Below are positions 28,127 to 59,814 of a DNA stretch of 62,202 nt, piece by piece; positions within the stretch are counted from its first letter, which is position 1, and each line of letters starts with the position of its first letter. This DNA is from Pseudomonadota bacterium. GTDB lineage: Bacteria; Pseudomonadota; Gammaproteobacteria; SURF-13. A model generated the notes under the pieces. That model was given only the letters and a program-made list of their open reading frames with translations, was not told where the DNA came from and made no database searches. Made by a program: the position numbers and the translations under genes. The stretch is from assembly GCA_027624315.1 (NCBI GenBank), contig JAQBXX010000001.1:1-62202 (forward strand), in the 5' to 3' direction.

Positions 28127-28280
28127 TTTACTCAGGAGTCACAAAGTAAGGCTGCAATGCTTATGACATGACTCCTGAGTAAATACGCTGTTTTATCTAC
28201 CCCCACCCTGTCCCGCCCCCTAAACAAGGGGCGGGGACGTAGCGGGAAGTGGAGTCTTACTTACTTGACTGTTGAGCAAA
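28127..28280 (+). repeat. Covarying-hairpin GC-core element, copy 1 (ponA-pilQ gap)
   Basis: 15-base hairpin arms TTTACTCAGGAGTCA (28127-28141) and complement (28169-28183). Then comes the invariant segment CTACCCCCACCCTGTCCCG with the GC stem CCCGCCCC...GGGGCGGG (about 28212-28236), and then a 40-base tail ending TGAGCAAA. Same architecture and length (154 bp) as the copies at 47585, 48752 and 59661. Confidence 0.85.
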
Positions 28281-28357
28281 ACGGTACGGCGACAAACTCC
28301 AGCCGCCGGCGGCGCGCAGATGCCAGTATAGACTGCCATCGCGGATTACGAAATATG

Positions 28358-28385
28358 TTGATTTTTTATACTGTTGATCTATAGT
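28358..28385 (+). promoter_or_regulatory. Sigma70-like promoter ahead of the truncated pilQ
   Basis: TTGATT (28358-28363), 16 bases, TATAGT (28380-28385). It lies in the AT-rich stretch that replaces pilMNOP and the 5' part of pilQ, and it could drive aroK, aroB and dgt downstream. Confidence 0.4.
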
Positions 28386-28429
28386 TCGGCCTAGTATTTA
28401 ATGAATTAAGCGATATATGCTACGTAACC

Positions 28430-30163
28430 CTGGAAAGCGCCCCTGACACGGCACTCGCAAAAGGCCCCGCCGCCGCCTCCCCGGCGGCAGGCGCGGGTGC
28501 GTCCCGGCAGGCCCTCAGCAATGTCGACTTCCGCCGCGGCGAGAGCGGCGAAGGCCGTATCCTGGTGACCCTGTCCGACCCCGCCACCGGCGTGGACATC
28601 CGCGAGGAAGGCGGCAAGATACTGGCCGACTTCATGAACAGCAGCATGCCCGAGAATCTGGAGCGGCGCCTCGATGTAACCGATTTCGCCACGCCGGTGA
28701 AGACGGTGGAGACCACCACGCTCGGCAGCCATGCGCGCATGACCATCACGCCGCAAGGTGAGTTCGAGCACCTCGCCTACCAGTCGGGCAATGTGTTCAC
28801 CATAGAAGTGAAGCCGCTCACCAAGGCACAGCAGGAAGTCGCCAAGAAGGACAAGGGTTACACCGGCGAAAAGCTTTCGCTTAATTTCCAGAACATCGAG
28901 GTGCGTGCGGTGCTGCAGTTGATCGCCGATTTCACCGGCCTCAACCTGGTGGCGAGCGACACCGTACAGGGCAGCCTCACCCTGCGCCTGAAGAACGTGC
29001 CGTGGGATCAGGCGCTCGACATCATTTTAAAAACCAAGGGCCTCGCCATGCGCCAGAACGGCAACGTGATCCAGGTGGCGCCGGGCGAAGAGATCGCGGC
29101 GCGTGAAAAACTCGACCTGGAATCACAGAAACAGGTGGCCGAGCTCGCCCCGCTGCGCTCGGAGTTCATCCGCATCAATTTCGCCAAGGCCTCCGACCTC
29201 GCCGCGCTGCTCAAGGCCAAGGAAAATTCGATGCTCTCACCGCGCGGCAATGTCGCGGTCGACGAACGCACCAACACGCTGCTGGTGCAGGACGTGGCGG
29301 ACAAGCTGGCCGAAGTCAGAAAGCTGGTCACCACGCTTGATGTGGCACAGCGCCAGGTGATGATCGAATCGCGCGTGGTGATCGCGGACGACAACTTCAG
29401 CAAGGACCTGGGCGTGAAATTCGGCGTGAGCAAAAACACCAACGCGGATGCTACTGGTGGCGGGATGGTGACGACCGCCGGTACGATCAACGCCACCACC
29501 AACCTGATCAACAACCTCCCCTTCGGCAACTCGAACGACTCCGCGGCGACCACGATCATCCCGACCGACCGGCTCAACGTGAACCTGCCGGTCACCGGCC
29601 CGTCGATCGGCCTGGCCATCGCACGGTTACCGTTTGGCACCCTGCTGGAGCTGGAACTCTCCGCGCTGCAGAAGGAGAAACGCGGCGAGGTCATCTCCAA
29701 TCCGCGCGTGGTCACGGCGAACCAGAAAGAGGCCCTGATAGAACAGGGTGAGGAGATTCCGTATCTGGAGGCGAGCTCGAGCGGCGCCGTCACCGTGTCA
29801 TTCAAGAAGGCCGTGCTCTCGCTTAAGGTAAAGCCGCAGATCACACCGGATAACCACATCATCATGGACATCACGGTGCACAAGGACTCGCGCGGCGAGA
29901 TCGTCGTCCTGGACGGCTCCTCAGTACCCGCCATCGACACCAAGCAGGTCTCCACCCAGGTGCTGGTGGATAACGGCGAAACCATCGTGCTGGGCGGCGT
30001 GTACGAACAGACCACCAGCAAAGACACACAGCGCGTGCCGTTCCTGGGCGATCTGCCCTATATCGGCTTTTTGTTCAAACAGGAGCTCAATATCAACGAC
30101 AAAAACGAACTGCTGATCTTCGTCACGCCCAAGATCCTGGAGGATAACCTGGGCCTGAAATAA
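28430..30163 (+). pseudogene. pilQ: 5'-truncated pilQ, type IV pilus secretin
   Basis: PilQ forms the outer-membrane secretin ring for the type IV pilus. The reading frame is open from 28385, but there is no ATG, GTG or TTG until GTG 28565. Homology begins in the Ala/Pro linker (LAKGPAAASPAAGAGA) followed by the second AMIN domain (SNVDFRRGESGEGRILVTLSDP), the N0/STN domain (KLSLNFQNIEVRAVLQLIADF), one N1 domain and a complete secretin C-domain (VVTANQKEALIEQGEEIPY, VLGGVYEQ, PFLGDLPYIGFLF). The signal peptide and first AMIN domain are missing, about 170-200 residues compared with P. aeruginosa PilQ. pilM, pilN, pilO and pilP, which normally precede it, are also absent. Without a signal peptide the product could not reach the outer membrane. 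Confidence 0.88.
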
Positions 30164-30180
30164 TCATATCCGTGGCACGC

Positions 30181-30201
30181 AGCGCCCGTTGAACGGGCGC
30201 T
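30181..30201 (+). terminator. Hairpin after pilQ
   Basis: Ten-base perfect arms AGCGCCCGTT and AACGGGCGCT around a single G, followed by TGATTT. The T-run is weak, so it could be an attenuator or mRNA-stabilising hairpin ahead of aroK. Confidence 0.45.
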
Positions 30202-30235
30202 TGATTTCCCCGCTGATACCGGCAAAGATGCCGGC

Positions 30236-30787
30236 ATGACCGCCATCCCACTCAAGCACGGAAATCTGTTCCTGGTCGGCCCGATGGGGGCGGGCAAGAC
30301 CACTGTCGGGCGCGAACTCGCGCGGCGACTGCACCTCACCTTCCACGACAGCGACCATGAAATCGAACGCCGCACCGGCGCCAGCATCCCGCTCATCTTC
30401 GAACTGGAAGGCGAGGCCGGCTTTCGCGCGCGCGAAAAAAACATGATCGCGGAGCTTGTCCGGCACGAGAACGTCGTGCTCGCCACCGGCGGCGGTGCGA
30501 TCCTCGACCCCGCCAACCGCGCCGCGCTTGCCGCGCGCGGTACGGTGATCTATCTGCACGCACCGACCGAGCACCTGCTCCAGCGCATCGGACGTGACAC
30601 GCACCGCCCGCTCATGCAAACGGAAAATCCGCGTGCGCGGCTGGAGCATCTGATGCGGGAACGTGACCCGCTCTATCGCGCGATCGCCGATCTTGTGATC
30701 GAAACCCATCGCCGCCGTACACCGAGCGTGGTGAATGAAATCCTGCGCCATCTCAAGACACGACCCGTACCGATTGGCGTACAATAA
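30236..30787 (+). CDS. aroK: Shikimate kinase
   Basis: 183 aa. Phosphorylates shikimate at O3 with ATP in the chorismate pathway. Walker [15 protein letters not shown], shikimate-binding [12 protein letters not shown] and ATGGGAIL, and the lid region [11 protein letters not shown] are all present. Normal length for AroK (about 175). It lies between pilQ and aroB as in most gammaproteobacteria and is likely co-transcribed with aroB (24 bases). Confidence 0.95.
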
Positions 30788-30811
30788 ACACCACACTTAA
30801 AAGCAACACCC

Positions 30812-31915
30812 ATGCCCACGCTGCAACTTGATCTCGGACCGCGCAGTTACCCGATCTGCATCGGCCCCGGCCTGCTGGGCCGCAGCGACGTCATCGCGCC
30901 CCACATCGCCGGCAAACAGGTGATGGTGGTGAGCAATGAAACGGTCGCGCCTTTATATCTCGACAAGACGCTGGCTGCGCTAACGGGCTTTCATTGCGAT
31001 TCGGTGATTCTTCCCGACGGCGAAAAATACAAAACCATGGATACGCTCAACACGATCTTCACTGCGCTGCTCGGTAAGCGTCACGACCGCAGCACGACGC
31101 TGGTGGCCCTCGGCGGCGGCGTAATCGGCGACCTCGCCGGCTTTGCCGCGGCGTGCTATCAGCGTGGCGTGAATTTCATCCAGATTCCGACCACGCTGCT
31201 GGCGCAGGTGGATTCCTCCGTCGGCGGCAAGACCGGAGTGAATCATCCACTGGGCAAGAACATGATCGGCGCGTTTTACCAGCCACGCTGTGTGATCGCA
31301 GACACCGATACGCTGAACACGCTGCCGGAGCGCGAACTCGGCGCCGGTATCGCCGAGGTGATCAAATACGGCCTCATCCGCGATCATGAATTTTTCGTCT
31401 GGCTGGAAAAGAATATCGAGGCCTTGCGCGCGCGCGAACCCGCCGCGCTTGCCTTCGCCATCGAGCGCTCGTGCCGCAACAAGGCGGATGTAGTGGCGCG
31501 CGATGAGCGTGAAAGCGGCGAGCGCGCGCTGCTCAATTTCGGCCACACCTTCGGCCACGCCATCGAGACCGGCCTCGGTTACGGCACCTGGCTGCACGGC
31601 GAGGCGATTGGCGCCGGCATGGCGCTGGCCGCCGATCTCTCCTGCCGTCTCGGCTGGATTTCCGCATCCGACCGGCAGCGTATCGAGGCCTTGCTGGTAC
31701 GCGCGCACCTGCCCGTGCGCGCGCCCGCGCAGATCGGCAGCGAGCAGTTTCTCGACCTCATGGCGGTGGACAAAAAGGTGAGCGGCGGCAAACTGCGCTT
31801 GATTCTGCTCAAGGGCATCGGCCAGGCCGTCATCAGCGCGGACTTCGATGCGCAGCTCCTGCGCGCCACGCTGGACACCTGTCGCAGCGCGCAACCGCTC
31901 CCCGCACCTGCATGA
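30812..31915 (+). CDS. aroB: 3-dehydroquinate synthase
   Basis: 367 aa. Converts DAHP to 3-dehydroquinate with NAD and a divalent metal. Seen: NAD loop [21 protein letters not shown], catalytic [21 protein letters not shown], metal-binding Glu in [13 protein letters not shown] and His in [13 protein letters not shown] and [11 protein letters not shown]. Full length. Its stop overlaps the start of the dgt-like gene (ATGA). Confidence 0.96.
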
Positions 31916-33060
31916 CGCTCGCCCCCTACGCCGCACATCCCGAACAGTCGCGTGGACGCCACCACGCGGAGGCCGCGCCGTCCTACCGCAGCGAGTTTCA
32001 GCGCGACCGCGACCGCATCATCCACAGTGCCGCGTTCCGCCGCCTGGAATACAAGACGCAGGTGTTCGTCAACCATGAAGGCGACATGTTCCGCACCCGC
32101 CTCACGCATTCCATCGAAGTGGCGCAGATCGCGCGCTCGGTGGCGCGCGCGCTCGCACTCAACGAAGACCTGGTGGAAGCCATCGCGCTCGCGCACGATG
32201 TCGGTCACACACCGTTCGGCCACGCCGGTCAGGACGCCCTCAACGACTGCATGCGCGAGCTCGGCGGCTTCGAGCACAACCTGCAATCGCTGCGCGTGGT
32301 GGATGAGCTGGAAGAGCGTTACGCCGGATTTGCGGGCCTCAACCTCACCTTCGAGACACGCGAGGGCATCCTCAAGCATTGTTCGCTGGCCAAGGCAAAA
32401 GAGCTGGGCGAACTGGGCCTGCGCTTTCTGCATAAACACCAGCCGAGCCTTGAGGCGCAGCTTGCCAACCTCGCGGACGAGATCGCCTACAACAGTCACG
32501 ACGTGGACGACGGCCTGCGCGCCGGCCTCATCAGCCTTGAGCAGCTCAACGCCATTGAACTTTTTCACACGCAATACGCGGAGGTGCTGCGCGCCCATCC
32601 GGCACTGGCCGAGCGGCGCGCGATACACGAAACGGTGCGCCGCCTCATCAACCGCCAGATCGTCGATCTAGTCGAAACCACCCGCGCCGCGCTCAACGCG
32701 GCGGCGCCCGTCAACATCGATGCAGTGCGCGTGCATACCGAGCCGCTCATCGGCTTCAGCCCGGAGATGCGCCGCCAGGGCCTGGAGCTGAAGCGTTTCC
32801 TGCGTGAGCATCTGTACCGGCATTATCGCGTCACGCGCATGACCACCAAGGCGGCACGCACGGTACGCGCGCTGTTCGAGGCCTTCATGGCGGAGCCCGG
32901 CCTGTTGCCGCCGGAGTTCGCCGCCCGCGCCACGGCCTTGGAGCATGAAACCGGCACCTCCGGACGCTCGCGCGCAGTGGCGGACTACATCGCCGGCATG
33001 ACCGACCGCTACGCCATCACCGAATATCACCGCCTGTTCGACCCCGCCGAATCCTCGTAA
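31912..33060 (+). CDS. dgt: dGTP triphosphohydrolase-like HD protein
   Basis: 382 aa. The HD phosphohydrolase motif is intact: [37 protein letters not shown], and the downstream Asp in [17 protein letters not shown]. Length and motifs fit the dGTPase-like family, subtype 2, which removes triphosphate from dNTPs. The family label is firm; the real nucleotide preference is not known. Four-base overlap with aroB indicates translational coupling. The aroK-aroB-dgt order is conserved in the group. Confidence 0.88.
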
Positions 33061-33073
33061 CGCACTTTTCGCA

Positions 33074-33102
33074 TTGAGCGAAAAACCTGCCAGCGCTATA
33101 CT
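33074..33102 (+). promoter_or_regulatory. Sigma70-type promoter of gltBD
   Basis: TTGAGC (33074-33079), 17 bases, TATACT (33097-33102). Transcription would start near 33109, which rules out the TTG start at 33074 and favours an ATG at 33161 or 33167. Confidence 0.65.
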
Positions 33103-33160
33103 GATAGACCCTTTGCGCGCCCAGACTGCGCAAGGGCCTAAAGAATTGACGAACTCACAG

Positions 33161-39132
<5,972 letters not shown>

Positions 39133-45117: not shown

Positions 45118-45190
45118 TCAACGCAAAGACGCCAAGACGCAAAGATTTTTTCAACGCACGTGTCTTTGCGTCTTGGCGTCTTTGCGTTGA
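45118..45190. repeat. Perfect 28-bp inverted repeat (CGCAAAGACGCCAAGACGC type)
   Basis: Arms at 45118-45145 and 45163-45190 are exact complements over 28 bases with a 17-base spacer. A degenerate copy stands at 49573-49629. This CTTTGCGTCTTGGCG motif is a widely scattered bacterial intergenic repeat; no T-run follows, so a terminator role is uncertain. Confidence 0.8.
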
Positions 45191-47584: not shown

Positions 47585-47734
47585 ATTGCTAATGAGTTCA
47601 TTGTTAAGGCTACACTATCCTGTACGTTCCCGCCCCCTGTTTAGGGGGCGGGACAGGGTGGGGGTAGAGCAAACACGGCATCACTCAGGAGACACGATTA
47701 ATGACGACACGTCATTAATCGTGTCTCCTGAGTG
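47585..47734 (-). repeat. Covarying-hairpin GC-core element, copy 2 (minus orientation)
   Basis: Read on the minus strand: perfect 25-base palindrome arms (47682-47706 and 47710-47734, three-base loop, outer part CACTCAGGAG/CTCCTGAGTG), then CTACCCCCACCCTGTCCCG and the GC stem (about 47629-47652), then the tail GTGTAGCC..AACAATGAACTCATTAGC. It lies nine bases after the epmB stop and ahead of the FimX-like gene. Confidence 0.85.
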
Positions 47735-48751: not shown

Positions 48752-48905
48752 TTGCCAAGGAGTCATAAGACAGAGAGGGATTTATTATTTTGTGACTCCT
48801 TGGCAAAATACTGTTTTCCCCTACCCCCACCCTATCCCGCCCCCTAAACAGGGGGCGGGGACGTGTCGTAAAGTGTAGACTTGGCAATGAATTTATCAGT
48901 AAATT
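48752..48905 (+). repeat. Covarying-hairpin GC-core element, copy 3 (epmB-efp gap)
   Basis: Arms TTGCCAAGGAGTCA (48752-48765) and complement (48793-48806). Compared with copies 1, 2 and 4 the outer bases of both arms have changed together (ACTC/GAGT to GCCA/TGGC), preserving pairing. Invariant CTACCCCCACCCTATCCCG and GC stem follow, then a 40-base tail ending CAGTAAAT. It occupies nearly the whole 190-base epmB-efp divergence. Confidence 0.85.
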
Positions 48906-48941
48906 TTTCAACGTAAATATCACGCAGAGGCAAAAGACACG

Positions 48942-49511
48942 ATGGCTACCTTCAGTACCAATGAATTCAAAAGCGGTCTCAAAGTGATGCTGGACAATGA
49001 CCCTTGCGCCATCGTCGAAAATGAATTTGTAAAACCCGGCAAGGGGCAGGCCTTCAACCGCGTCAAGATACGCAACCTGAAAACCGGGCGCGTGATCGAG
49101 CGCACCTTCAAATCCGGCGACACCATGGAAGGGGCGGACATCATCGATACCGCCATGCAGTATCTTTATACCGACGGCCAGTTCTGGCACTTCATGGTTC
49201 CTGACACCTTTGAACAGCACATTGCGGATAGTAACGCAGTCGCCGACGCAAAAAAATGGCTCAAGGAACAGGATGTCTGCACCGTTACGCTCTGGAACGG
49301 GCAACCGCTGTTTGTCACTCCTCCCAACTTTGTCACGCTCCGGGTGACCGACACCGACCCCGGCCTGCGCGGCGATACCTCCGGCGGCGGCGGCAAGCCC
49401 GCCACGCTCGAAACCGGCGCCGTGGTACGGGTGCCGTTGTTCATCGAGGTGGGCGAGCTGCTCAAGGTGGACACGCGCACCGGCGAGTATGTGTCGCGCG
49501 TCAAAGAATAG
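48942..49511 (+). CDS. efp: Translation elongation factor P
   Basis: 189 aa. Binds stalled ribosomes between P and E sites and relieves polyproline arrest. KOW-like domain I with the beta-lysylated lysine in [13 protein letters not shown] (K34 equivalent), OB domains II and III, and the C-terminal GEYVSRVKE. The stop is TAG and the C-terminus is as in E. coli, so TAG is a normal stop in this genome. AGAGG ribosome site upstream. The modifying enzymes EpmB and EpmA flank it. Confidence 0.97.
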
Positions 49512-49572
49512 CTTCGTTACGGCTGGGTGTAGCCTTAATTGACCCACTTACTCACGTTAGGATGAAAAATGC

Positions 49573-49629
49573 TCAACGCCAAGACGCAGAGATTTTTATT
49601 TTCTTAGCGTCTTTGCGACTTTGCGTTGA
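49573..49629. repeat. Degenerate copy of the CTTTGCG inverted repeat
   Basis: Left arm TCAACGCCAAGACGCAGAG and right arm CTTTGCGACTTTGCGTTGA resemble the perfect repeat at 45118-45190 with several mismatches. Lies between efp and epmA. Confidence 0.65.
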
Positions 49630-49657
49630 GATTTTAGTAATTTAGTAATAGCACCCA

Positions 49658-50665: not shown

Positions 50666-50761
50666 AAAAGCATCCCGCTGCCGCATCTTTCCGAGGCTTG
50701 CGTTTGCGCGCGGCGTTCGCTACTATCTGTCGCAGTGTGTCCTTTCATGGCATGCACAAGT

Positions 50762-50792
50762 GCCTGAGACTACAGTTTTTTTGCAGCCTCAG
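50762..50792 (+). terminator. Hairpin between epmA and the cold shock gene
   Basis: CCTGAG...CTCAGG arms with an internal run of seven T. The rest of the 183-base gap 50666-50848 would form the leader of the cold shock gene; a small stem GGCGGTGTTTTCCGCC stands at about 50803-50818. I could not recognise a classic cold box. Confidence 0.4.
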
Positions 50793-50848
50793 GAATTTAA
50801 TCCGGCGGTGTTTTCCGCCCTATATTTATGAGTAAGAGATAGTCATTT

Positions 50849-51055
50849 ATGAAAAATGGTACTGTAAAATGGTTTAACGATTCCAAGGGCTTTGGATTCA
50901 TCTCCCCCACCGACGGCGGCGACGACATCTTCGTACACTACTCCACGGTGCAAGGCGACGGATTCAAGTCCCTGGCCGAAGGTCAGGCGGTGGAATTCGA
51001 AGCCACGCGTGGCCCCAAAGGGATGCAGGCCACCAAGGTAGTTATCAAGGCCTGA
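50849..51055 (+). CDS. Cold-shock family RNA-binding protein
   Basis: 68 aa, the standard CspA size. RNP1 KGFGFISP and RNP2 DIFVHYS are intact within [19 protein letters not shown] single OB fold that binds single-stranded RNA/DNA and melts mRNA structure. Whether it is cold-induced cannot be said from the sequence; the 180-base leader is compatible with thermosensitive regulation. Confidence 0.96.
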
Positions 51056-51095
51056 AGCCTGACGTCAGTCGCTTAAAACAATAATAAATTTATTC

Positions 51096-51192
51096 CCCGC
51101 GCTCTTGGCGCGGGCTCCTTGACAATGGGGTTTCCAAAGGGGAGAAGTGCAACTCCCCCCTTTGGTCGCCCGCGCGGTTTTATACCGCGCGG
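51096..51192. terminator. Three hairpins between the cold shock gene and mutM
   Basis: CCCGCGC/GCGCGGG (51096-51114), CCAAAGGGGAG with CTCCCC..TTTGG (51134-51165), and CCGCGCGGT/ACCGCGCGG (51170-51192). They separate two convergent transcripts and probably terminate both. The rest of the gap 51056-51251 shows nothing coding. Confidence 0.5.
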
Positions 51193-51251
51193 TACGAAAT
51201 TAAATTGACCTCCCACTTGATGCTCCGTAGAGTGCAGGGTGTGCTGCGTGT

Positions 51252-52067
51252 TCAGCGCTGACACCGCACGCAATAATACGTTGCACGCTGCCCCTGCCTG
51301 AGTTGCCGCACGGGGTGCCCGCAGGCCTGACACGGCAGGCCATCGCGCCCGTACACGGCTAGCTGCTGCTGGAAATAACCGGGCGTTCCATCGCTACTGC
51401 GAAAATCGCGCAGCGTCGTACCCCCCTGTACAATCGCCTTGCGCAACACCTCCCGAATGGACTGCACCAGAAGCTCGCAGCGTTGCCGTGAGAGGCGGCC
51501 TGCGGCGCGCTGCGGATGAATGCCCGCAGCAAACAGGGCCTCACTGGCGTAGATATTACCGACCCCGACCACCATACGGCTGTCCATGATGAACAGCTTT
51601 ATCGCCGTGCGCCGGCCACGTGCACGGCGATAAAGATAAGCGCCGCTGAAATCATCGCCCAGGGGCTCCGGGCCGAGCGCGCTCAGCAATGGATGCGTGA
51701 GGGGATCGGCCTCGGTCCATAATGCCGCGCCGAAGCGGCGCGGATCACGCAGCCGCAGACAGGTGTGATCGGTGAACACAATATCGAGGTGGTCGTGTTT
51801 TTCCGCGGGGGTGGATGCGGGCAGTATGTGCAGGCGGCCCGACATGCCGAGGTGCAGAATGACGGTACCCACGCGGCTACGCAGCAGCAGGTACTTGCCG
51901 CGCCGTTCTGCGGCTTCAATCGCGTGCCCCGGCAACCGGCGCGCCAGCGCACGCGGCACCGGCCAGCGCAGACGCGCATCGCGCACCACCACACGGGCGA
52001 CCGTTTTCCCCACACTATGACGCGCAATGCCGCGCCGTGTGGTTTCCACCTCCGGCAATTCGGGCAT
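51252..52067 (-). CDS. mutM: Formamidopyrimidine-DNA glycosylase
   Basis: 271 aa. Removes 8-oxoguanine and FaPy lesions and nicks the abasic site. Catalytic N-terminal Pro and Glu in MPELPEVETTRRG, Lys in LHLGMSGRLHI, H2TH motif GVGNIYASEALFAAGIHP, and a complete four-Cys zinc finger CQACGHPVRQ...YYCVRCQR at the end. Last gene of the minus-strand run that includes the ABC cluster; two bases separate it from the DUF4340 gene. Confidence 0.96.
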   Translation of the reverse strand: MPELPEVETTRRGIARHSVGKTVARVVVRDARLRWPVPRALARRLPGHAIEAAERRGKYLLLRSRVGTVILHLGMSGRLHILPASTPAEKHDHLDIVFTDHTCLRLRDPRRFGAALWTEADPLTHPLLSALGPEPLGDDFSGAYLYRRARGRRTAIKLFIMDSRMVVGVGNIYASEALFAAGIHPQRAAGRLSRQRCELLVQSIREVLRKAIVQGGTTLRDFRSSDGTPGYFQQQLAVYGRDGLPCQACGHPVRQLRQGQRATYYCVRCQR

Positions 52068-52069
52068 GA

Positions 52070-52957
52070 TCAGGGTACGGCGTGTGCGCTGAGACTGAAC
52101 AGTTGCCCGCTGGCCGCCGCCGGAAAATGGTACTGCACGCCAAGGTCGGCCCGCGCCAGCACCAGGCCCGGCGCGCGGCTCACGATATCGAAACGCAGCG
52201 GCTGCTCTGCGCCCTCCAGATGAACAAAGATCATATTCTCCGGCTCCGCGCCAGCGCTCGCAGGTGTGACATAGGGGCGTACCTGGATCGCGCGTGCACG
52301 GCGCCAGGCATCGAGCAGCGCATTGACCCTATCCATCGACACCCCAGTCTCCGGCGGCACCTGCGCGCGGTTCGGTGCCTGCATCCAGCCGCCCTCGCCC
52401 ACCCGCACCAGGCGCAGGGCGGGCAGATCGATCTGCGTGAGGCGGCTCCCCGGCGCGAGCAGCGCGCTATCGGCAAATGCGGTGAACTCGCCAATCAGGT
52501 CGAAATACACGGTGTCGCTGATGAGGTGCACGCTGTCACCGACGCGCACGTAACGGCGTCCATTGAGCGGCTCGGTAGCGCCGAAGGCGAGCTCGGTAGT
52601 GCCGAGCCACAGCCGCGCGCGCGGCTTATCGAGCTTGAATTCGGCCAGCCGCACCGTGGCGGCGTCCAGGCGCGCGTGGCTCTCCGCCTGCGCCACCTGC
52701 AACACGGTCTCGACGCGGAAGGTATTGGCGGGCATACGCACCGGCGCCGTCATGATCCAGTCCTGCGCCTGTTTTTCCAGCATGATTGGCGCGGCGCCGT
52801 CGCGTTCGATGCGCAGATGCGTAATGCTCGCCGGCACGAGCGTGGTGAGTTTGGGCAACGGCGGCGCATTGTTGAGGCCGGGCAGATAGATGACCACCAG
52901 CACCAGCAGCGCCACACCGCCGAGTAATGCCAGATTGAGCCAGTTGCGTGTGGTCAC
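52070..52957 (-). CDS. DUF4340 protein of the Gld-type ABC cluster
   Basis: 295 aa with one N-terminal membrane segment (WLNLALLGGVALLVLVVIYLPG) and an extracytoplasmic region of two DUF4340-like repeats (LRIERDGAAPIMLEKQAQDWIMTAPV; DLPALRLVRVGEGGWMQAP). Regularly follows GldG-like genes; thought to be a partner of that ABC system, function unknown. Two bases after the GldG-like stop, two before mutM. Confidence 0.85.
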   Translation of the reverse strand: MTTRNWLNLALLGGVALLVLVVIYLPGLNNAPPLPKLTTLVPASITHLRIERDGAAPIMLEKQAQDWIMTAPVRMPANTFRVETVLQVAQAESHARLDAATVRLAEFKLDKPRARLWLGTTELAFGATEPLNGRRYVRVGDSVHLISDTVYFDLIGEFTAFADSALLAPGSRLTQIDLPALRLVRVGEGGWMQAPNRAQVPPETGVSMDRVNALLDAWRRARAIQVRPYVTPASAGAEPENMIFVHLEGAEQPLRFDIVSRAPGLVLARADLGVQYHFPAAASGQLFSLSAHAVP

Positions 52958-52959
52958 GG

Positions 52960-54345
52960 CTAGCGTTTGCGCCGCTGCAGCCAGATCAGCAACCCGCTCG
53001 CCAGCAACATGAGCGGCACGACAAACAACAGACCCAGTCCGATCAGCAGCGAGGCGGTGCGTGACAGGTGCAGCGCGGTGTCGGGCGCGGTCTTGGCCGG
53101 AATGGAGATCAGGCTGTCGTCGTGCGCGAGCCAGTTGATGATGTTGAGGCCGAGGTCGAGATTGCCGCCGTTGCCGAGGTAGGTGTTGGAGAGGAAATCG
53201 CCGTCTCCGGTAATCACAATGCGCTGCTCCTGCTGCGCGCCGGGGTTCGTCTCTGCGGCGTCGCGTACGAACGCGATGCCGAGGTTGAGCGGGCCACGCT
53301 TGTCACCTTTACCGGAATCGAAGCTGATGGCGCCGCTTAATGTGCCGGTCTCGGCCCAACTGGCCGCACCCGTCACCAGAATCGCCGTGCCGCGCCAGCC
53401 ACTGGCACTGTCGCCGGTGCTGTTATCAGCCGCGCTCAACTCCATGCCCTGTGCGCGCGGATATAGCGTGATACTGCGGAAGCCGCGCGTGACCGGATGC
53501 GGGCCGTACTCCGCCACCAGGGCAAATTCGGGACGGCTGACGCCGAGCAACTGGGCGGCGGGATCGACGATGACACCGGGCACAAACTCCACCCCCAACT
53601 GCTCGGCCAGCGGCTTAAGCCCATGCAACGGCTCCGGGTCGGTGAGCCAGAGCAGATTGCCGCCGCCCTTGACGTAGTCCTGGATCAGCCGCACTTCGCC
53701 CGGCAACAGATCGGTCTGCGGCGCGGCGATCACCAGCACGCTGGTAGCGTCGGGTATCTGCGGATTGGCGCCGAGATTGAGCGCGTGCGCCCTGAGGCCC
53801 TTGATCTCCAGTTGCCGCGCCCACAGGCCAAGGTCGTGATTGGCCTCGCCGTGCGGATCGCGCTCGCCGTGGCCGGAGAGAAACACAATACTGCGCTCAC
53901 CTCTGCGCGCCACGCGCGCGAGCGCATTGGTCAGCGCCTGCTCGGACAATTCGCGCAGACGCTCCACACGCCCGCCGTGCTCGATCACGAGCTCGCCGTC
54001 CACGGTGACACCCAGCGCGCGCACCTTTTCGGGCGCGCTGTCGGGGTTGACGAAGGCGAGTTTCAGGTCGGGCTTGTAGCGCTGATAGCGCGCGACGAGC
54101 TCACCGATGCGTTTGCGCAAAGCAGTGTCTTCGCGCGCATACGCCGTGATCTGCACCGCACCCAATTCCTTGAGCAGCGCCTGGCTCGGCGCCGACAGCG
54201 TGTTGCGCGCGCCCGCGGTCCAGTCCGCCTGATAGACATAACGCGTGCTGAGCCACGCGAGCAGGCCCATCACCCCGATGAACAGCACGACGAAGGCGAT
54301 ATTTTGCAGCCTGACCTGGAGACGCGATTTTGGAGTGACTTGCAT
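52960..54345 (-). CDS. GldG-like auxiliary protein of an ABC transporter
   Basis: 461 aa. N-terminal membrane segment (LQNIAFVVLFIGVMGLLAWL), a large extracytoplasmic ABC_transp_aux domain (about 40-420; RSIVFLSGHGERDPHGEANHDLGLWA, LLWLTDPEPLHGLKPLAEQLG) and a C-terminal membrane segment (LLIGLGLLFVVPLMLLASGLLIWL). In Bacteroidetes the GldA/F/G set is linked to gliding and protein export; in proteobacteria the substrate is unknown. Tight operon with permease and ATPase genes. Confidence 0.87.
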   Translation of the reverse strand: MQVTPKSRLQVRLQNIAFVVLFIGVMGLLAWLSTRYVYQADWTAGARNTLSAPSQALLKELGAVQITAYAREDTALRKRIGELVARYQRYKPDLKLAFVNPDSAPEKVRALGVTVDGELVIEHGGRVERLRELSEQALTNALARVARRGERSIVFLSGHGERDPHGEANHDLGLWARQLEIKGLRAHALNLGANPQIPDATSVLVIAAPQTDLLPGEVRLIQDYVKGGGNLLWLTDPEPLHGLKPLAEQLGVEFVPGVIVDPAAQLLGVSRPEFALVAEYGPHPVTRGFRSITLYPRAQGMELSAADNSTGDSASGWRGTAILVTGAASWAETGTLSGAISFDSGKGDKRGPLNLGIAFVRDAAETNPGAQQEQRIVITGDGDFLSNTYLGNGGNLDLGLNIINWLAHDDSLISIPAKTAPDTALHLSRTASLLIGLGLLFVVPLMLLASGLLIWLQRRKR

Positions 54346-54357
54346 AAGCGCCGGGGA

Positions 54358-55116
54358 TCAGTGTTGCAGCCGGTCGGCGTCGAGGCGCCGGATGGCGAGC
54401 ACCAGAAAAGTAACAATGAACAGCAGGTAATACACCACATCGGCGCTGTTGAACACGCCCTTGAGCATCGACTCGTAATGGCGCACCAGCGAGAGATAGG
54501 CGAACAGCCCGCTCGCTTCGGTGCCCTTGTCGCCCGCCCAGTCGATGATCCACAGCAACAGCAGTACGCCGAAGGTGCTCACCGCCGCCACGCCCGGATA
54601 ACTGGTGAGCGCAGACATGAACAAACCCAGCGCAGCGAAGCTTGCAATCATGAGCGCTAGCCCCATCAGCCCGGCGCCGAATTTCCCGGCATCCAGCGTG
54701 CCGCCGCCCAGCAGCAATGTCAGCGGCATCAACGCAATGAGCGCGAGCATGATGAAGAAAAACGCCAGCACGCCCAGATATTTGCCGAGGATGATTTCGG
54801 TCATCGACAGCGGCGCGCTGAACAACAGTGTGAGGCTTTGCGCGCGCCGCTCTTCGCTGATCAGCCGCATGGTAAGCATCGGCGCCACCAGCAGCAACAC
54901 GATGGCGACATTGCCGAACAGCGGCGCGACCACAATATCGGTCAGCCCCGGCGCGCCCTCGCGCGCGGCGAGTTGCGGTTGCAACTGCACAAAGGTGTCG
55001 AGCTGGATGAGAAACATGTAGGCGATGATGATCTGCACCACAGCGAGTATCGTCCACGCGAGCGGCGACAGAAACAGGCTCTTCAGTTCACGTGCAGCAA
55101 TAGTGAATATCAACAT
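54358..55116 (-). CDS. ABC-2 type permease (GldF-like)
   Basis: 252 aa with six membrane segments, including SPLAWTILAVVQIIIAYMFLIQL at the front and VVYYLLFIVTFLVLAIRRLD at the end. The conserved SEERRAQSLTLLFSAPLSMTEIILGKYLG loop marks ABC-2/GldF permeases. Start overlaps the ATPase stop (TAATG). Confidence 0.9.
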   Translation of the reverse strand: MLIFTIAARELKSLFLSPLAWTILAVVQIIIAYMFLIQLDTFVQLQPQLAAREGAPGLTDIVVAPLFGNVAIVLLLVAPMLTMRLISEERRAQSLTLLFSAPLSMTEIILGKYLGVLAFFFIMLALIALMPLTLLLGGGTLDAGKFGAGLMGLALMIASFAALGLFMSALTSYPGVAAVSTFGVLLLLWIIDWAGDKGTEASGLFAYLSLVRHYESMLKGVFNSADVVYYLLFIVTFLVLAIRRLDADRLQH

Positions 55117-56051
55117 TATGCGGCCACCGGTTCGCTGCGGGTCAACTCCATGAAAATCTGTTCCAGCGACAGCCGCTCCGGACTTAACTCGTACAGCCCC
55201 CAGCCCTGCTCTGCGGCATGCCTGACCACTGTGTCGGCCATCTCAGGTCCGGTGCAATACAAACGAAAGGCGCCGTCCTCAAGCACCTCGACGCCGTGCA
55301 CACCGGCAATGGCCTCCAGCGCGGACAACGCGGGTGGGTAGCGTAGCCCCACGCGCAGACTGGCGCCCTGCATGCGTCGCGTCAGCCCTTCGATGCTGTC
55401 CTTCAACACCAGTTCACCGCGATGGATGATCTGCACCTGATCGCAGATCGCCTGCACCTCGGGCAGGATGTGCGTGGAAAGAATCACGCTGTGCTCGGCG
55501 GCCAGCTCGCGGATCAGGGCGCGCATTTCGTGTATCTGGATCGGGTCGAGGCCCGCCGTCGGCTCGTCAAGTATCACCACGGCGGGCATGTGCACTATGG
55601 CCTGTGCAATCCCGACGCGCTGGCGGTAGCCCTTGGACAGATTGCCGATAAGACGGCTGCCCACGCCGGTGAGCCCGCAGCGTTGCCTGGCGATATCGAG
55701 CGCACTGTTTTCGCGCGCACGCGGGATACGGTGCAGGCGCGCGCAATAACGCAGATATTCGTCCACCGTGAGTTCACGGTACAGCGGCGGCTGTTCGGGG
55801 AGAAAACCGATATGTGTCTTGGCGCGCTTGGGTTCGTCCAGTATGTCGATACCGTTGATCCACACCCGCCCGCGCGTGGGCGCAAGGTTGCCGCTGATGA
55901 TCTGCATGGTGGTGGACTTGCCCGCGCCGTTGGGGCCGAGAAAGCCCAGCACCTCGCCTCGCCGCACCTCGAAACTCACGTCGCGCAACGCGCACAGTGC
56001 GCCGTAGTAGCGCGATACGTGCTCAACGCGAATCAGGGCAGCGTCGCTCAT
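55116..56051 (-). CDS. ABC transporter ATP-binding protein (GldA-like)
   Basis: 311 aa from ATG 56051 (MSDAALIRVEHVSRYYGALC) with GAGGA four bases upstream; the longer ORF reads into the corA tail. Walker A GFLGPNGAGKSTTMQI, Q-loop FLPEQPPLYRE, signature NLSKGYRQRVGIAQA, Walker B VVILDEPTAGLDPIQ, H-loop ILSTHIL. The C-terminal extension (about 220-311) is typical of GldA/CcmA-type ATPases. Powers the permease encoded next. Confidence 0.93.
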   Translation of the reverse strand: MSDAALIRVEHVSRYYGALCALRDVSFEVRRGEVLGFLGPNGAGKSTTMQIISGNLAPTRGRVWINGIDILDEPKRAKTHIGFLPEQPPLYRELTVDEYLRYCARLHRIPRARENSALDIARQRCGLTGVGSRLIGNLSKGYRQRVGIAQAIVHMPAVVILDEPTAGLDPIQIHEMRALIRELAAEHSVILSTHILPEVQAICDQVQIIHRGELVLKDSIEGLTRRMQGASLRVGLRYPPALSALEAIAGVHGVEVLEDGAFRLYCTGPEMADTVVRHAAEQGWGLYELSPERLSLEQIFMELTRSEPVAA

Positions 56052-56086
56052 GGCGTCCTCTACAGCCAGCCTTTGCGTTTGAAATA

Positions 56087-57007
56087 CTAATAGGGTGCCA
56101 CGCCAAATATGACCATCAGCACGATGGCCAGCGCATAGCCCCACTCCCAGCCTAACTCCGGCATATATGTGAAATTCATGCCGTAGATGCTCGCCACCAG
56201 CGTCGGCGGCAGAAACACCACCGACGCGATCGAAAATATCTTGATGATCTTGTTCTGCTCGATGTTGATCATGCCCATGCCGGCATCCATCAGCAGGTTC
56301 ACCTTTTCATACAGAAACGCGGAGTGGGCGATGAGCGACTCGATGTCCTTGAGAATTTCGCGCAGCTGCTGCGTTTGCACCGCGCTGAAATCGCCGCGCC
56401 GCAACAGATACGACAGGGTGCGCTGCTTGTCCATCATGCTGAGACGCGCGGTACCGTTCATGTCCTCGCTCGCGGCAATGCGCGTGAGTACCACGCCCAT
56501 GTCCTTCTCCGCAGTGCTGAATACGGTCTGGCTCAATACCTCAAGATCGGCCTGCAACCGCTCCAGCGTGTCCGCCAGGCGTTCGACCTTGATCTCGAAC
56601 AGATTGAGCATGATGGTCATGGCGTCATCGGCGAGCCCGGCCTGGCGCCGCGCGCGCATGCGGTAGACGCGGAAGGTGAGCAGGTCTTCGTCGTGCAGCA
56701 TGAACAAACGCCCCTGGTTCAGGGTGAAGGCCACCGTGATGTTGCGTGCGCGGTCTTCATAATCGTGCAGAAAATAGGAATGGATGTGGAGGCCGTCTTC
56801 GTCCTGGTAAAAACGCGCGCTGGCCTCGATCTCGACCACCTCGTCAGGCGTCGGCAGCGCCTGACTGTAAACCTGCTTGACCCAGGCAAGCTCTTCTTCA
56901 GTGGGCTGGATGAGGTCGATCCACAGCGCCTGCTGCTCCAGTTCATCCATACTGCTGATCTGCTGCTGCTCCAGACAGCCATCACGCAGTACAAATGTGG
57001 TAATCAT
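56087..57007 (-). CDS. corA: CorA-type Mg2+ channel, C-terminus cut by an amber codon
   Basis: 306 aa from ATG 57007 (MITTFVLRDGC; AGGGTGG upstream). Long cytoplasmic helical domain, TM1 with the selectivity motif YGMNFTYMPEL and a TM2 (WEWGYALAIVLMVIFGVAPY). The frame then meets TAG (56089-56087) but continues with YFKRKGWL and a second TAG at 56062-56060. YFKRKGWL is the normal CorA C-terminal cytoplasmic tail, so one substitution has removed the last nine residues. The channel may still fold but lacks its basic tail. Pentameric Mg/Co uptake in other species. Confidence 0.88.
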   Translation of the reverse strand: MITTFVLRDGCLEQQQISSMDELEQQALWIDLIQPTEEELAWVKQVYSQALPTPDEVVEIEASARFYQDEDGLHIHSYFLHDYEDRARNITVAFTLNQGRLFMLHDEDLLTFRVYRMRARRQAGLADDAMTIMLNLFEIKVERLADTLERLQADLEVLSQTVFSTAEKDMGVVLTRIAASEDMNGTARLSMMDKQRTLSYLLRRGDFSAVQTQQLREILKDIESLIAHSAFLYEKVNLLMDAGMGMINIEQNKIIKIFSIASVVFLPPTLVASIYGMNFTYMPELGWEWGYALAIVLMVIFGVAPY

Positions 57008-57116
57008 GTGCCCCACCCTGTTGAAAATTATATCCGCATCCGTGTCATGGTAAGCGGCCCACGCATGCGAGGCAATCGTTTAAAACGATGCAGCCGTGCT
57101 TATTACGTCAAACGCT

Positions 57117-57386
57117 TTACTCGGCCTCCCCGAAGCGCTCGCCGACCAGTTGTTCCAGGCGATCCAGCGCGGACGCCTCGTCTGCGCCAGCGGCAATGAT
57201 GTGCAGTGCGGTGCCCTGCGTGGCGGCAAGCATCATCACGCCCATGATGCTCTTGCCGTTGACTTCCCGTGCGCCGCGCGCAAGCCGGATGTCGCTCTCG
57301 AATTGCGCCGCCAGGGTGACGAACTTCGCCGCTGCGCGTGCATGCAGACCGAGCTTGTTACAGATGACGACCTCACGACGCTGCAT
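57117..57386 (-). CDS. ptsH: HPr-type phosphocarrier (NPr/HPr)
   Basis: 89 aa from ATG 57386, two bases after the EIIA stop. Phospho-acceptor His in NKLGLHARAAAKFV, and the Ser-46 region VNGKSIMGVMMLA, which is the target of HPr kinase encoded in the same operon. No sugar-specific EIIB/EIIC genes are seen and no EI (ptsI or ptsP) lies in the window, so this is an incomplete regulatory PTS linked to nitrogen or carbon signalling. Confidence 0.93.
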   Translation of the reverse strand: MQRREVVICNKLGLHARAAAKFVTLAAQFESDIRLARGAREVNGKSIMGVMMLAATQGTALHIIAAGADEASALDRLEQLVGERFGEAE

Positions 57387-57388
57387 GG

Positions 57389-57790
57389 TCAGACTGCGCA
57401 GATGGGGTTGCAGCACAACACACCGTCCTTGCCGCCGGAGATGGCCTTGTCCACGAGTTCGGCGAGGCCGAGCTGCGGATAATTCAGGATGCGGATCAGC
57501 ATCGGCAGATTGACCCCCGCAATCACCTGCACGCGCCCGCTGTCAATCAGGTGACAGGCGATATTGCTCGGCGTGGAGCCGTAGATGTCCGTCAGCACCA
57601 GCACGCCGTTACCCTGATCAAGCGCCGCGACCGACTGACGTGCCTTGCGCAGTGTCGTCTCCGGGTCTGCATTCTGCGTCACCGATAAAACCTCGGTAGC
57701 GAGTGGGCACAGACCCAGCATGGTGGTGGCGGTGGCGATCAAATCGTCACCGATATGGTTGTGAGTAATAATCAACAGGCCAATGGTCAT
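57389..57790 (-). CDS. PTS EIIA component, mannose family
   Basis: 133 aa stand-alone EIIA of the ManX type. Active His in LLIITHNHIGDDLIATA, and the conserved GVLVLTDIYGSTPSNIA and VIAGVNLPML. Since no EIIB or EIIC partners are present, it probably has a regulatory function, as in other proteobacteria where it follows rapZ. Start overlaps the rapZ stop (ATGA). Confidence 0.92.
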   Translation of the reverse strand: MTIGLLIITHNHIGDDLIATATTMLGLCPLATEVLSVTQNADPETTLRKARQSVAALDQGNGVLVLTDIYGSTPSNIACHLIDSGRVQVIAGVNLPMLIRILNYPQLGLAELVDKAISGGKDGVLCCNPICAV

Positions 57791-58644
57791 GTGAGGTCTC
57801 GATGTCGCACCAGTACATTATCGCGTATTTTATGGAAATGATCGGCCAGGCGCTGCGCGAAATATACCGAACGGTGCTGCCCGCCGGTGCAGCCCAGCGC
57901 CACCGTCATGTAGCTGCGGTTCTCCGCCTCGAACGCGGGCACCCAGTGTTCGAGAAACGCCGTGATCTCCCCGCACATCTGGTTGACCGGCGGCTGGGCC
58001 GCGAGATAGGCCGCCACCGGGGCATCGAGTCCGTTCTGCGGACGCAACGCCTCCTGCCAGTGCGGATTGGGCAGGCAGCGCAGATCAAACACGAAGTCGG
58101 CGTCCGCCGGAATGCCTCGCTTGTAGGCAAACGACTGAAACAGGATCGACATCGCGCTGCGGCCCTTTGTTTCCATGCGCCCGCACACCAGCTCGCGCAG
58201 CTGATGCACGTTGGTCTCGCTGGTGTCGAGGTGAGTGTCGGCACGCGCGAACATCGGCGCCAGCAGCCTGCGCTCATAGGCAATGGCCTCGGCCAGCGGC
58301 ATGCCGAGGCGCGACAGCGGATGCTTGCGCCGCGTCTCGCTGAAACGCTTGAGCAGCGTCTTGTCGCCGGCGTCGAGAAATATCATCTCGCACGCCAATC
58401 CGCCGTGCTTGATCTCGTCCAGCAGTTGCGGCACATGGTGCAGATCGTCGGTGAGCGTGCGCGCGTCGATGCCGACCGCTGCATTCTCGTAGCCCTGCTG
58501 CACCCCTTTCGCAAGCCCGGCGGCAAAGGCGGGCAGCAGGCCCACCGGCAGGTTGTCGATGCAGTAGTAGCCCAGGTCTTCCAGCGCCTGCAGCGCGGTG
58601 CTCTTGCCGGAGCCGGAGAGCCCGGTGACGATGACGAGTTTCAT
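57787..58644 (-). CDS. rapZ: RNase adapter / nucleotide-binding protein RapZ
   Basis: 285 aa. Walker A GLSGSGKSTALQALEDLGYYCIDNLP and the C-terminal HRSVYFAQRLADHF. In E. coli it guides RNase E to the GlmZ sRNA and so controls GlmS; whether such sRNAs exist here is unknown. Overlaps hprK and EIIA by four bases on each side, indicating translational coupling. Confidence 0.95.
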   Translation of the reverse strand: MKLVIVTGLSGSGKSTALQALEDLGYYCIDNLPVGLLPAFAAGLAKGVQQGYENAAVGIDARTLTDDLHHVPQLLDEIKHGGLACEMIFLDAGDKTLLKRFSETRRKHPLSRLGMPLAEAIAYERRLLAPMFARADTHLDTSETNVHQLRELVCGRMETKGRSAMSILFQSFAYKRGIPADADFVFDLRCLPNPHWQEALRPQNGLDAPVAAYLAAQPPVNQMCGEITAFLEHWVPAFEAENRSYMTVALGCTGGQHRSVYFAQRLADHFHKIRDNVLVRHRDLT

Positions 58645-59177
58645 GCCTGACGCTGCATGAGGTCGCGTTGCCGCCGGACAAAATCCTGTGCCGCGTCATA
58701 ACCGCTGCGGCGCAGCTTGAAATCACGCACCAGGGTTTCGACGAGCAGGGCCGTGTTGCGGCCGGGTATGAGCGACAGTGTTACTGCGGGAATGGCGCGG
58801 CCCAGCACCGTGCAGGTGCGATAGTCCGGTGTGAGGGTACGTGACGTGTCTGCGATGCTGCGTTGCAGGTGTATCCTGAGCGCGAGCACGGCGCGGGGTG
58901 CGATGGCGGCAGCTCCGAACAGGGCGCGGATATTCAGCACGCCGAGGCCGCGCACCTCGAGCATATCCTGCAGCAGCGGCGGGCATGTGCCTTGCGGCGC
59001 TGTATCCGTACCCGCGTGGAATTCCGGCGCGTCATCGGCGATGAGACGGTGTCCGCGCGTGACGAGTTCGAGCGCAAGCTCGCCCTTACCCGCACCGCTC
59101 GCACCGCACACCAGCACGCCGAGGTCCAGTATCTCCATGAACACGCCGTGCAGCGTCATGTCGGCAGTGCGGGACAT
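58641..59177 (-). CDS. hprK: HPr kinase/phosphorylase reduced to the catalytic domain
   Basis: 178 aa against about 310-320 for standard HprK. The product begins with the kinase domain (TLHGVFMEILDLGVLVCG), so the regulatory N-terminal domain is missing; only nine bases separate its ATG from the ptsN stop. P-loop is GASGAGKGELALEL, with Gly where Ser normally follows the Lys. The signature EVRGLGVLNIRALFG and capping DDAPEFH are present. Short forms exist in alphaproteobacteria, so it may be functional, but the P-loop change makes activity uncertain. Would phosphorylate Ser-46 of HPr. Confidence 0.85.
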   Translation of the reverse strand: MSRTADMTLHGVFMEILDLGVLVCGASGAGKGELALELVTRGHRLIADDAPEFHAGTDTAPQGTCPPLLQDMLEVRGLGVLNIRALFGAAAIAPRAVLALRIHLQRSIADTSRTLTPDYRTCTVLGRAIPAVTLSLIPGRNTALLVETLVRDFKLRRSGYDAAQDFVRRQRDLMQRQA

Positions 59178-59186
59178 GGGACCACC

Positions 59187-59648
59187 TCAGGCGGCAGGCC
59201 GCCAGTGGCTCAGAAGTTCGTACAGGGCCTCACTGGAATCGGCAGCGCGCAACTCCGCGCGCAGATTCTTGTCGCTGAACATCTGCGCCAGCAGGGCGAG
59301 TATCTGCAAGTGCTCCTCGGTGCAGTGTTCCGGCACCAGAAGCGCGAACAGGAGGTCGGCCGGCTGTTTGTCGAGGGCATCGAAATCGACACCGTCGGCG
59401 AGCTGCACAAAGGCGCCCATCGGCCGCTGTGCCCCCTTCAGGCGCCCGTGCGGCAGCGCGACACCGTGGCCGAGACCGGTGCCGCCGAGGCGCTCACGCG
59501 CCGCCAGGCTGTCGAAGATTTCGTGCGCATCAGGCCCCGGCTGCGCGCCTGCCAGCAGCTCGCTCAGCAATTCGAACGTGCGCTTCTTGCTTGCGCTGCG
59601 GGCGTGGCAGGCGATGCGTTGCGGGGCGAGAAGATCGGTAATCTGCAT
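59187..59648 (-). CDS. ptsN: Nitrogen PTS EIIA (PtsN)
   Basis: 153 aa from ATG 59648 (MQITDLLAPQRIACHARSAS); the GTG 11 codons earlier falls inside the repeat element. Phospho-His in GLGHGVALPHGRLKG (His of ALPHG), LLFALLVPEHCTEEHLQILA and FSDKNLRAELR are typical EIIA-Ntr blocks. Regulatory phosphoprotein of the PTS-Ntr branch. Normal operon position between hpf and hprK/rapZ. The repeat element starts 12 bases before the ATG. Confidence 0.93.
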   Translation of the reverse strand: MQITDLLAPQRIACHARSASKKRTFELLSELLAGAQPGPDAHEIFDSLAARERLGGTGLGHGVALPHGRLKGAQRPMGAFVQLADGVDFDALDKQPADLLFALLVPEHCTEEHLQILALLAQMFSDKNLRAELRAADSSEALYELLSHWRPAA

Positions 59649-59660
59649 GCTACTGCCGGA

Positions 59661-59814
59661 CTTACTCAGGAGCCACGACACAGACTACACAGCTGACTGA
59701 ATAACTCCTGAGTAAGCACCCCGTTTCACTTACCCCCACCCTGTCCCGCCCCCTGAACAAGGGGCGGGAACGTGTCGGAGAGTGTCGCCTTGATAATGAA
59801 CTCATGAGTAAACT
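59661..59814 (+). repeat. Covarying-hairpin GC-core element, copy 4 (hpf-ptsN gap)
   Basis: Arms CTTACTCAGGAG (59661-59672) and complement (59705-59716), invariant TTACCCCCACCCTGTCCCG with the GC stem, then a tail ATAATGAACTCATGAGTAAA whose last eight bases complement the outer left arm (TTTACTCA). 154 bp, the same length as copies 1 and 3. It interrupts the rpoN-hpf-ptsN operon. Confidence 0.85.

Follow-up and report, generated by a model that had tools for sequence, protein, structure and literature searches.

What is the short element that occurs four times in the first 62,202 bases of a 129-kb contig from an uncultured gammaproteobacterium with a small genome, and does the matched variation in the arms of its hairpin reflect selection for a structure? 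An earlier note on this stretch (bases 1-62202, hereafter the window) had described the four copies, named the variable structure hairpin A, and proposed either a REP-like mobile element or a regulatory RNA module. All four copies lie in the window sequence where the note had placed them, and repeat finding returns them as direct and inverted repeats. We followed the element through its own genome (G000; 1.43 Mb, 53 contigs) and five other members of the family (G001-G005), all draft assemblies. We put the probability at about 0.8 that it represents a new family of miniature inverted-repeat transposable elements (MITEs, which are non-autonomous DNA transposons), ~145 bp long and inserted at TA, whose hairpin arms are rewritten by template switching. 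This reading draws on the copy number, the ends, the empty sites, the occurrence of both shared old and private new sites, and the covarying arms, all of which were observed directly.

A repeat inserted at TA and dispersed through one family

Directly after the target TA, the left end reads CTCAGGAG(T/A)CAC..AAGTAAGG.TACA and is followed by the right arm of hairpin A, a linker (AAACCCTGTTTACTCTA), a C-rich core (CCCCCACCCTGTCCCGCCCCC), stem B and a tail (TGTAGTCTTACTTACTGACTTATGAG) that abuts the second TA. The conserved 40-base tail of the earlier note is present, although it is better described as the right terminal inverted repeat, since it corresponds approximately to the left arm and the hairpin-A loop in reverse complement; the left end can therefore pair with either the internal right arm or the tail. 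As in other MITEs, the terminal inverted repeats are imperfect (~30 bp, as read from aligned copies), and the element is present in many copies and too short to encode a transposase (judged from its length alone). There are two subfamilies by tail and several by hairpin. G002 and G004 contain a long form of ~237 bp whose core carries a structured insert, G001 has one match of that length, and a smaller core insert is found in G000 and G002. In the long forms of G004 (L168, L169, L170, L171, L172) and G002 (L145) the insert is ~75-90 bp and has hairpins of its own (TTTTGCGC..GCGCAAAA and others), one stem of which differs between the two genomes yet remains paired when compared by eye.

The element is abundant in its own genome and scarce outside the family. 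At no more than one mismatch the core occurs 56 times in G000 (29 forward, 27 reverse), compared with three times for a reversed control. The genome-wide covariance-model search that the note had recommended, with a model built from 37 aligned full copies out of the 43 non-edge copies found first, returned 70 matches at E<=1e-3, five of which overlap a stronger match, leaving ~65 distinct places. Raw model matches in G000 to G005 number 70, 8, 75, 5, 66 and 0, respectively. An exact 19-base core was detected in 4 of 95 genomes, all of them in this family and including G000 itself. Among 185 genomes drawn from the class, with at most 16 candidates scored per genome, four had a match at E<=1e-6: G000, G001, G086 (weak) and G027, a member of another family with one intact copy. 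This single copy (L203; G027 contig C51, 18398-18555) has an extended hairpin, and could reflect horizontal transfer or a binning error. Plasmids, phages and viral contigs gave no match, either by blastn of one copy each or with the exact 25-base core, and we rejected an origin from any of these. That the element belongs to no named family also held up, since no Rfam family reaches threshold in the window and three further sources gave just weak, sub-threshold matches; a literature text search for a 15-base core string found no occurrence. Five G000 contigs (C4, C6, C14, C36 and C45) terminate inside or beside the GC-rich core of the element. Because contigs end there, the draft may lack some copies, as well as any partner transposon.

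To find filled and empty orthologous sites, we compared the flanks of copies between genomes. Twenty of 54 G000 copies could be placed in the G002 stretches compared: nine are filled in the same orientation, eight are empty, one (window copy 2) has an independent insertion in the opposite orientation ~27 bp away, and two are of other kinds. A separate placement of window copy 1 adds a ninth empty site, so that G002 lacks each of the four window copies at the corresponding spot. Overall, around half of the sites that could be resolved are filled in one species alone.

Filled and empty alleles reveal clean TA duplications at L045 (GATTA and TAATAC on either side of the element, GATTAAATC when empty), L049 (GTGATA and TAGCATT, GTGATAGCATT when empty), L059 (GTTTA and TATCATGC, GTTTATTATGC when empty) and a G002 site compared with G001. 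At the trpB site of G002 the duplicated dinucleotide is CA, which stands on both sides of the filled allele and is also present in the empty one (L162 vs L015). Among 64 G000 and G002 copies with both ends recognised, TA stands at the left in 42 and at the right in 47, and the two dinucleotides are identical in 38; a T precedes in 45 and an A follows in 54, so that the context is mostly T-TA-A. Target-site duplication, expected of a MITE, and duplication of TA in particular, a known signature of IS630/Tc1-mariner elements, are thus seen at several sites and are imperfect at others. Mobility, one part of the note's REP-like proposal, is borne out by the empty orthologous sites and the TA duplications; the REP kind of mobility is not (see below).

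Insertion at TA with duplication of the dinucleotide was probably carried out in trans by a Tc1/mariner-IS630-type transposase, by analogy with elements that share this target, and this enzyme is now probably absent or lost in the draft assemblies. Pfam DDE_3 was absent in five of the six family members. The single DDE_3 (IS630) gene, in G004, was rejected as the partner because its ends are unrelated. A right-end pattern matched 30 places in G000 and a left-end pattern 35 in G004, and ten of these had no model match or core: three are copies at contig edges, five are long copies, one is an internally deleted copy of ~60 bp and one is a reverse read of a long copy.

Short intergenic elements of comparable design are described in part of PMC2229807. 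The Correia/NEMIS elements of Neisseria measure ~107 and 155 bp, have TA ends with target duplication and 24-bp terminal inverted repeats, and resemble the present element in being short, in duplicating TA, in their inverted repeats and in having two length classes set by an internal segment. Unlike them, our element has a sub-terminal hairpin A and a core with four C-runs and, as noted, finds no Rfam match in the window; this comparison is by description. RUP of Streptococcus pneumoniae is a 107-bp intergenic MITE at TA for which the same part of that source proposes an IS630-type transposase acting in trans; it shares its ends with IS630-Spn1, whereas no IS630 with the same ends was found here. 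What appears to go beyond an ordinary MITE is that the arms are apparently rewritten from one another and that the C-run/G-quadruplex core is conserved.

Covariation and apparent rewriting of the hairpin arms

Genome-wide, the arms of hairpin A do covary, as the covariation test suggested in the earlier note was meant to establish. In total, 92.9% of arm cells pair, and all 15 of the 15 pairs have changed on both sides; none of 500 shuffles reaches any of these measures, and registers slid by 1-3 give at most eight such pairs. Cells changed on both sides number 51, those changed on one side 10 and unpaired cells 39 (17 of these in the two outermost pairs). However, 18 of the 51 double changes fall at one pair, and 15 of these 18 are one subfamily's letter, so the cells are not independent events. 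Helix B has no covariation. Perfect hairpin-A stems have a median length of 15 bp; they reach at least 20 bp in 7 of 54 G000 copies and 5 of 51 G002 copies, and are shorter than 8 bp in 5 and 2 copies, respectively. The perfect 25-bp palindrome of window copy 2, which had been singled out as specific to that site, is therefore unique in the window and not in the genome. Likewise, the AGGAG/CTCCT pairing reported for every window copy is not universal genome-wide, as L022, L037, L041 and L046 have other arms.

Two ortholog pairs indicate how the arms change. The older insertion L055/L161 is shared by G000 and G002, and the empty site in G001 reads GCCGCCCATTAAAATG. The G002 copy (L161) keeps CTCAGGAGACAC..GTGTCTCCTGAGTAAT. 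The left arm of the G000 copy (L055) has lost ~8 bases and now starts in host flank (CCCATAAGACAC), and its right arm, GTGTCTTATGGG, is the exact complement of this new left arm, with three substitutions in five bases, all of them towards it. At L011/L115 the left arm, TTAAGCAGG, is common to both species; the right arm is mismatched at two bases in G002 (CCTGAGTAA) and matched in G000 (CCTGCTTAA). Both pairs fit template switching, that is, copying from arm to arm within a quasipalindrome, as judged from the aligned alleles. Loops were replaced or deleted between orthologs at L012, L039 and L044, and hardly altered at L006 and L015. At L153 (G000 contig C18, 32638-32765) the core and stem B form one long near-perfect palindrome with changed letters and all four C-runs kept; arm rewriting may thus act on stem B as well.

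Multi-base compensatory change by template switching in quasipalindromes is a known process, according to part of PMC8794818. In the portions of PMC8794818 and PMC7202029 that bear on this subject, multi-base compensatory changes and homogenisation of arms occur in one event, as they would here; those studies deal with RNA genes and Escherichia coli assays, whereas the present case concerns dispersed copies of a bacterial mobile element, includes an allele with mismatched arms in one species and a repaired one in another, and involves copying of an arm derived from host flank.

Besides matching the tail, the left inverted repeat pairs with an internal copy of its own outer part, which makes hairpin A. 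From these observations we propose that this near-palindrome is a hot spot for replication template switching. A mutation, a loss of bases or the uptake of host flank in one arm would be followed by rewriting of the other as its complement, presumably in a single step, and such rewriting would leave arms that differ between sites yet remain matched. The inference from compensatory change to selection for structure in the earlier note consequently stands in its first half, the covariation being real and strong, whereas the step to selection is not secured because the two ortholog pairs show multi-base arm rewriting. Covariation is commonly taken as the best proof of a selected RNA structure, and would point to a cis-regulatory RNA; here template switching would explain it too, so that mutation alone could produce it. 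Because the family offers many natural copies, some with orthologous pairs that show the state before and after a change, the question is directly testable in bacteria.

The conserved core, gene neighbourhood and competing explanations

On its reverse strand the core reads GGGGGCGGGACAGGGTGGGGG, which fits the quadruplex pattern of four runs of at least three G with loops of 1-7; the core is therefore a G-quadruplex motif on the other strand, with folding predicted from the pattern. Across eight shared ortholog pairs, mostly fetched by core patterns (a ninth, L152, was left out because its left half is deleted), the core differs at 2 of 184 positions, compared with 72/432 in hairpin A, 15/160 in the linker, 17/168 in the 3' arm of stem B, 43/304 in the tail, 147/1064 in the element outside the core and 656/6453 in the flanks (P=9e-9 against the rest of the element, 6e-5 against linker plus stem-B 3' arm and 2e-6 against flanks). 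A whole-genome search with a tail pattern gave mismatch rates of 0.033 for the core, 0.170 for the linker and 0.094 for the stem-B 3' arm over 26 non-edge places out of 30 in G000; three of these cores are altered by more than one base. Depending on the set, core divergence is 3- to 13-fold below that of other parts. The near-identity of stem B and tail described in the earlier note thus applies best to the C-run core, while the 3' arm of stem B varies more. Stem B, in the structure used, excludes the first nine core bases and so does not explain their conservation. Such near-invariance leads us to infer that the core has a function, either in mobilisation or in the host.

Constraint on the C-runs as such is suggestive, and the case for conservation of the core as a whole is stronger. 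One of 23 fetched single-substitution cores breaks the four-run motif, with a nominal P of 2e-4; this count is inflated, since loop position 11 was free to vary in the fetch patterns. From the 139 fetched core rows, 22 with at least two mismatches were kept out of this test; by eye they comprise 12 reverse-strand reads of stem B, three with inserts, two that are not the element and five altered cores. In the nine one-mismatch cores of the whole-genome search, omitting position 11, one breaks the motif, against 21 of the 42 substitutions that are possible (P=0.02; 1/7 and P=0.06 when counted by distinct type). These copies form a large natural set for testing constraint on an intergenic G-quadruplex motif.

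Gene neighbourhoods were available for 53 G000 copies from our own gene caller, except that the gene beside copy 2 was set from Pfam, which identifies a response regulator on the opposite strand. After four copies without a neighbour on one side were dropped, 14 of the remaining 49 lie between divergent genes, 35 between codirectional genes and none between convergent genes. Measured against the window's intergenic regions, a yardstick that rests on five convergent gaps, this absence has a P of 0.022 if TA dinucleotides are counted, 0.006 if gaps are counted and 0.002 if length is used. The codirectional copies have no clear preference (23 in the element's orientation and 12 against, P=0.09), and the fixed orientation and distance to one gene class expected of a cis-regulatory RNA were not seen, as both orientations occur and the named neighbours are mixed housekeeping genes.

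Close to its right end the element has an ATG, 71 bases from where the core begins, with which the frames of tilS, bioF, recX and parE open in G000 and those of tsaB, yoaA, comEC and trpB in G002. From the reading frames it appears to be the start codon of parE and others; housekeeping genes would thus apparently use a start codon supplied by a mobile element. For parE the family match starts at residue 2 and for tsaB at residue 4, which supports this assignment; the recX match falls short of the curated cut-off, and the locus ends within the parE frame. For scpB (L034) an ATG of its own, two codons further on and present in the empty allele as well, is another possible start, and by our reading an upstream GTG can serve the empty G000 allele of trpB. 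The stop codon of the upstream gene lies at or inside the left end in many gene calls. Copies persist mainly upstream of genes, some of them supplying a left-end stop codon or a right-end in-frame ATG, and this may be why they are tolerated there.

We considered whether hairpin A is instead kept by selection, acting in RNA or as a cruciform (in leader regulation, mRNA stability or transposase recognition), with unpaired arms being harmful. The pairing statistics, including the shuffled and slid controls, the lack of copies between convergent genes, and the persistence of paired arms even where the end sequence is altered or lost all agree with such selection. Against it, double changes exceed single-side changes, although many of them trace to one pair and one subfamily; ortholog loops are replaced or deleted, G002 retains a two-base mismatch at L115, the new right-arm bases of L055 match a left arm derived from flank and not from element sequence, and orientation relative to genes lacks a clear preference. 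We regard this explanation as unlikely while giving it real weight. A host-domesticated upstream module, whose C-run/G-quadruplex core acts on transcription or intergenic DNA structure and whose copies are retained by selection, would fit the low divergence of the core relative to the rest of the element and the flanks, the single motif-breaking core among nine and the avoidance of convergent gaps (P 0.002-0.02 by yardstick). About half of the resolved sites being private to one species implies that those copies are not essential; copies 1 and 3, the two scanned, contain no sigma-70 promoter-like or terminator-like match, both orientations relative to genes occur, and the 1/23 count is inflated as described, so that we find this module rather doubtful. 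The MITE reading may also be drawn more boldly, with a G-quadruplex core under host-level purifying selection, arms continually rewritten by template switching even from flank, site-specific perfect palindromes as the result, and some genes using a start codon from the element; in this full form it is a tentative proposal that we consider improbable.

Mobilisation as a REP/BIME-like repeat by a Y1 (RAYT) single-strand transposase, the kind of mobile element suggested in the earlier note, seems highly improbable. REP/BIME sequences are palindromic intergenic repeats with many copies and are associated with RAYTs; the present repeats are likewise palindromic, intergenic and numerous, and Y1_Tnp occurs at 18 places in five of the six genomes, four of them in G000. 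However, G002 has 75 model matches and no Y1_Tnp, the ends of the element are inverted and its target duplication measures 2 bp, and the proposed check for a RAYT-type transposase with the same ends came out negative: core, stem B and tail are all missing from the 10 inspected Y1 loci (of 18). Three of these ten have a 12-base match that resembles the element end with two mismatches and looks like chance, and the three G000 Y1 loci checked have their own, different inverted repeats around the gene.

Several points weigh against a MITE with template-switched arms. No autonomous partner with the same ends was found in the six draft genomes, which leaves the IS630 assignment inferential, and no gene was present within the ~320 bases viewed at any of the ten end-pattern places that lack a model match or core. 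At several target sites one TA is replaced by TG, CA, AA or TC, flanking dinucleotides are non-identical in 26 of 64 copies, and the element boundary is ambiguous at L034 and L051. Arm rewriting is direct at two loci only, in draft assemblies that may contain errors, and selection on stepwise mutants, or selection on top of rewriting, is possible; the shuffle and slide controls take incomplete account of relatedness and of the derivation of the structure from the same sequences. The fetching of loci by core patterns biases the eight-pair core figure, and sets fetched by the left end, which are less clean and include wrong-strand reads and long forms, give a weaker core/linker contrast (0.087/0.197 in G000, 0.062/0.171 in G002 and 0.186/0.308 in G004). 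Finally, the ~237-bp form with its structured core insert has no explanation in the MITE account.

The four window copies and other repeats

Bodies of the window copies were delimited by the TA target sites, as read from the sequence. The body of copy 1 (28131-28276, plus strand) is flanked by TA at 28129-28130 and CA at 28277-28278, and the orthologous G002 site is empty. Its hairpin A spans 28126-28184 (arms 28126-28141 and 28169-28184), the core (CCCCCACCCTGTCCCGCCCCC, with the G-quadruplex motif on the minus strand and its 3' part forming the 5' arm of stem B) lies at 28200-28220, and the tail, or right terminal inverted repeat, at 28240-28276. Folding gave z=-5.3 for this copy as RNA. Its neighbours by Pfam are a penicillin-binding protein and a secretin.

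Copy 2 lies on the minus strand (body 47589-47732), with CA outside at 47733-47734 and 47587-47588; its hairpin A, with perfect 25-bp arms, covers 47682-47734 and its core 47644-47664. The G002 site is empty, with the independent, oppositely oriented insertion nearby. Copy 3 (48755-48899, plus strand) lies between an earP-like gene and efp, flanked by TG at 48753-48754 and TA at 48900-48901, and is empty in G002 (L063). Its hairpin A (48752-48806, arms 48752-48768 and 48790-48806) has rewritten outer bases, and in its core (48824-48844) the TGT loop reads TAT; folding as DNA gave z=-5.9. Neighbours of copies 2 and 3 by Pfam are a response regulator and a protein with a radical-SAM match just under the threshold, which we take to be earP-like, partly from its position beside efp, and which is 93% identical in the close relative G002; copy 3 also adjoins efp (Pfam). 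Copy 4 (59665-59808, plus strand) has TA on both sides (59663-59664 and 59809-59810) and an empty G002 site, with hairpin A at 59661-59716 (arms 59661-59672 and 59705-59716) and the core at 59733-59753. Its neighbours by Pfam are a PTS EIIA protein and an S30AE ribosome-associated protein beside sigma-54. In the window as a whole the core has four matches at 0-1 mismatch and five at up to three mismatches, against 0.71 expected by chance. At 49526-49554, near the spot of an intact G002 copy, GGTGTAGCCTTAATTGACCCACTTACTCA looks like a decayed tail of the same element.

The window also contains other repeats. A second palindromic family, CAACGCAAAGACGCNAAGACGCAAAG, occurs in inverted pairs at 45118-45190 and 49603-49628 and has 59 matches in the genome at up to two mismatches, many of them as facing pairs within ~150 bp. 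Another short inverted repeat family, TTTTCTCTTGCCTCTTTTCTCT, is found at three places (13184-13320, 17224-17328 and 22667-22710).

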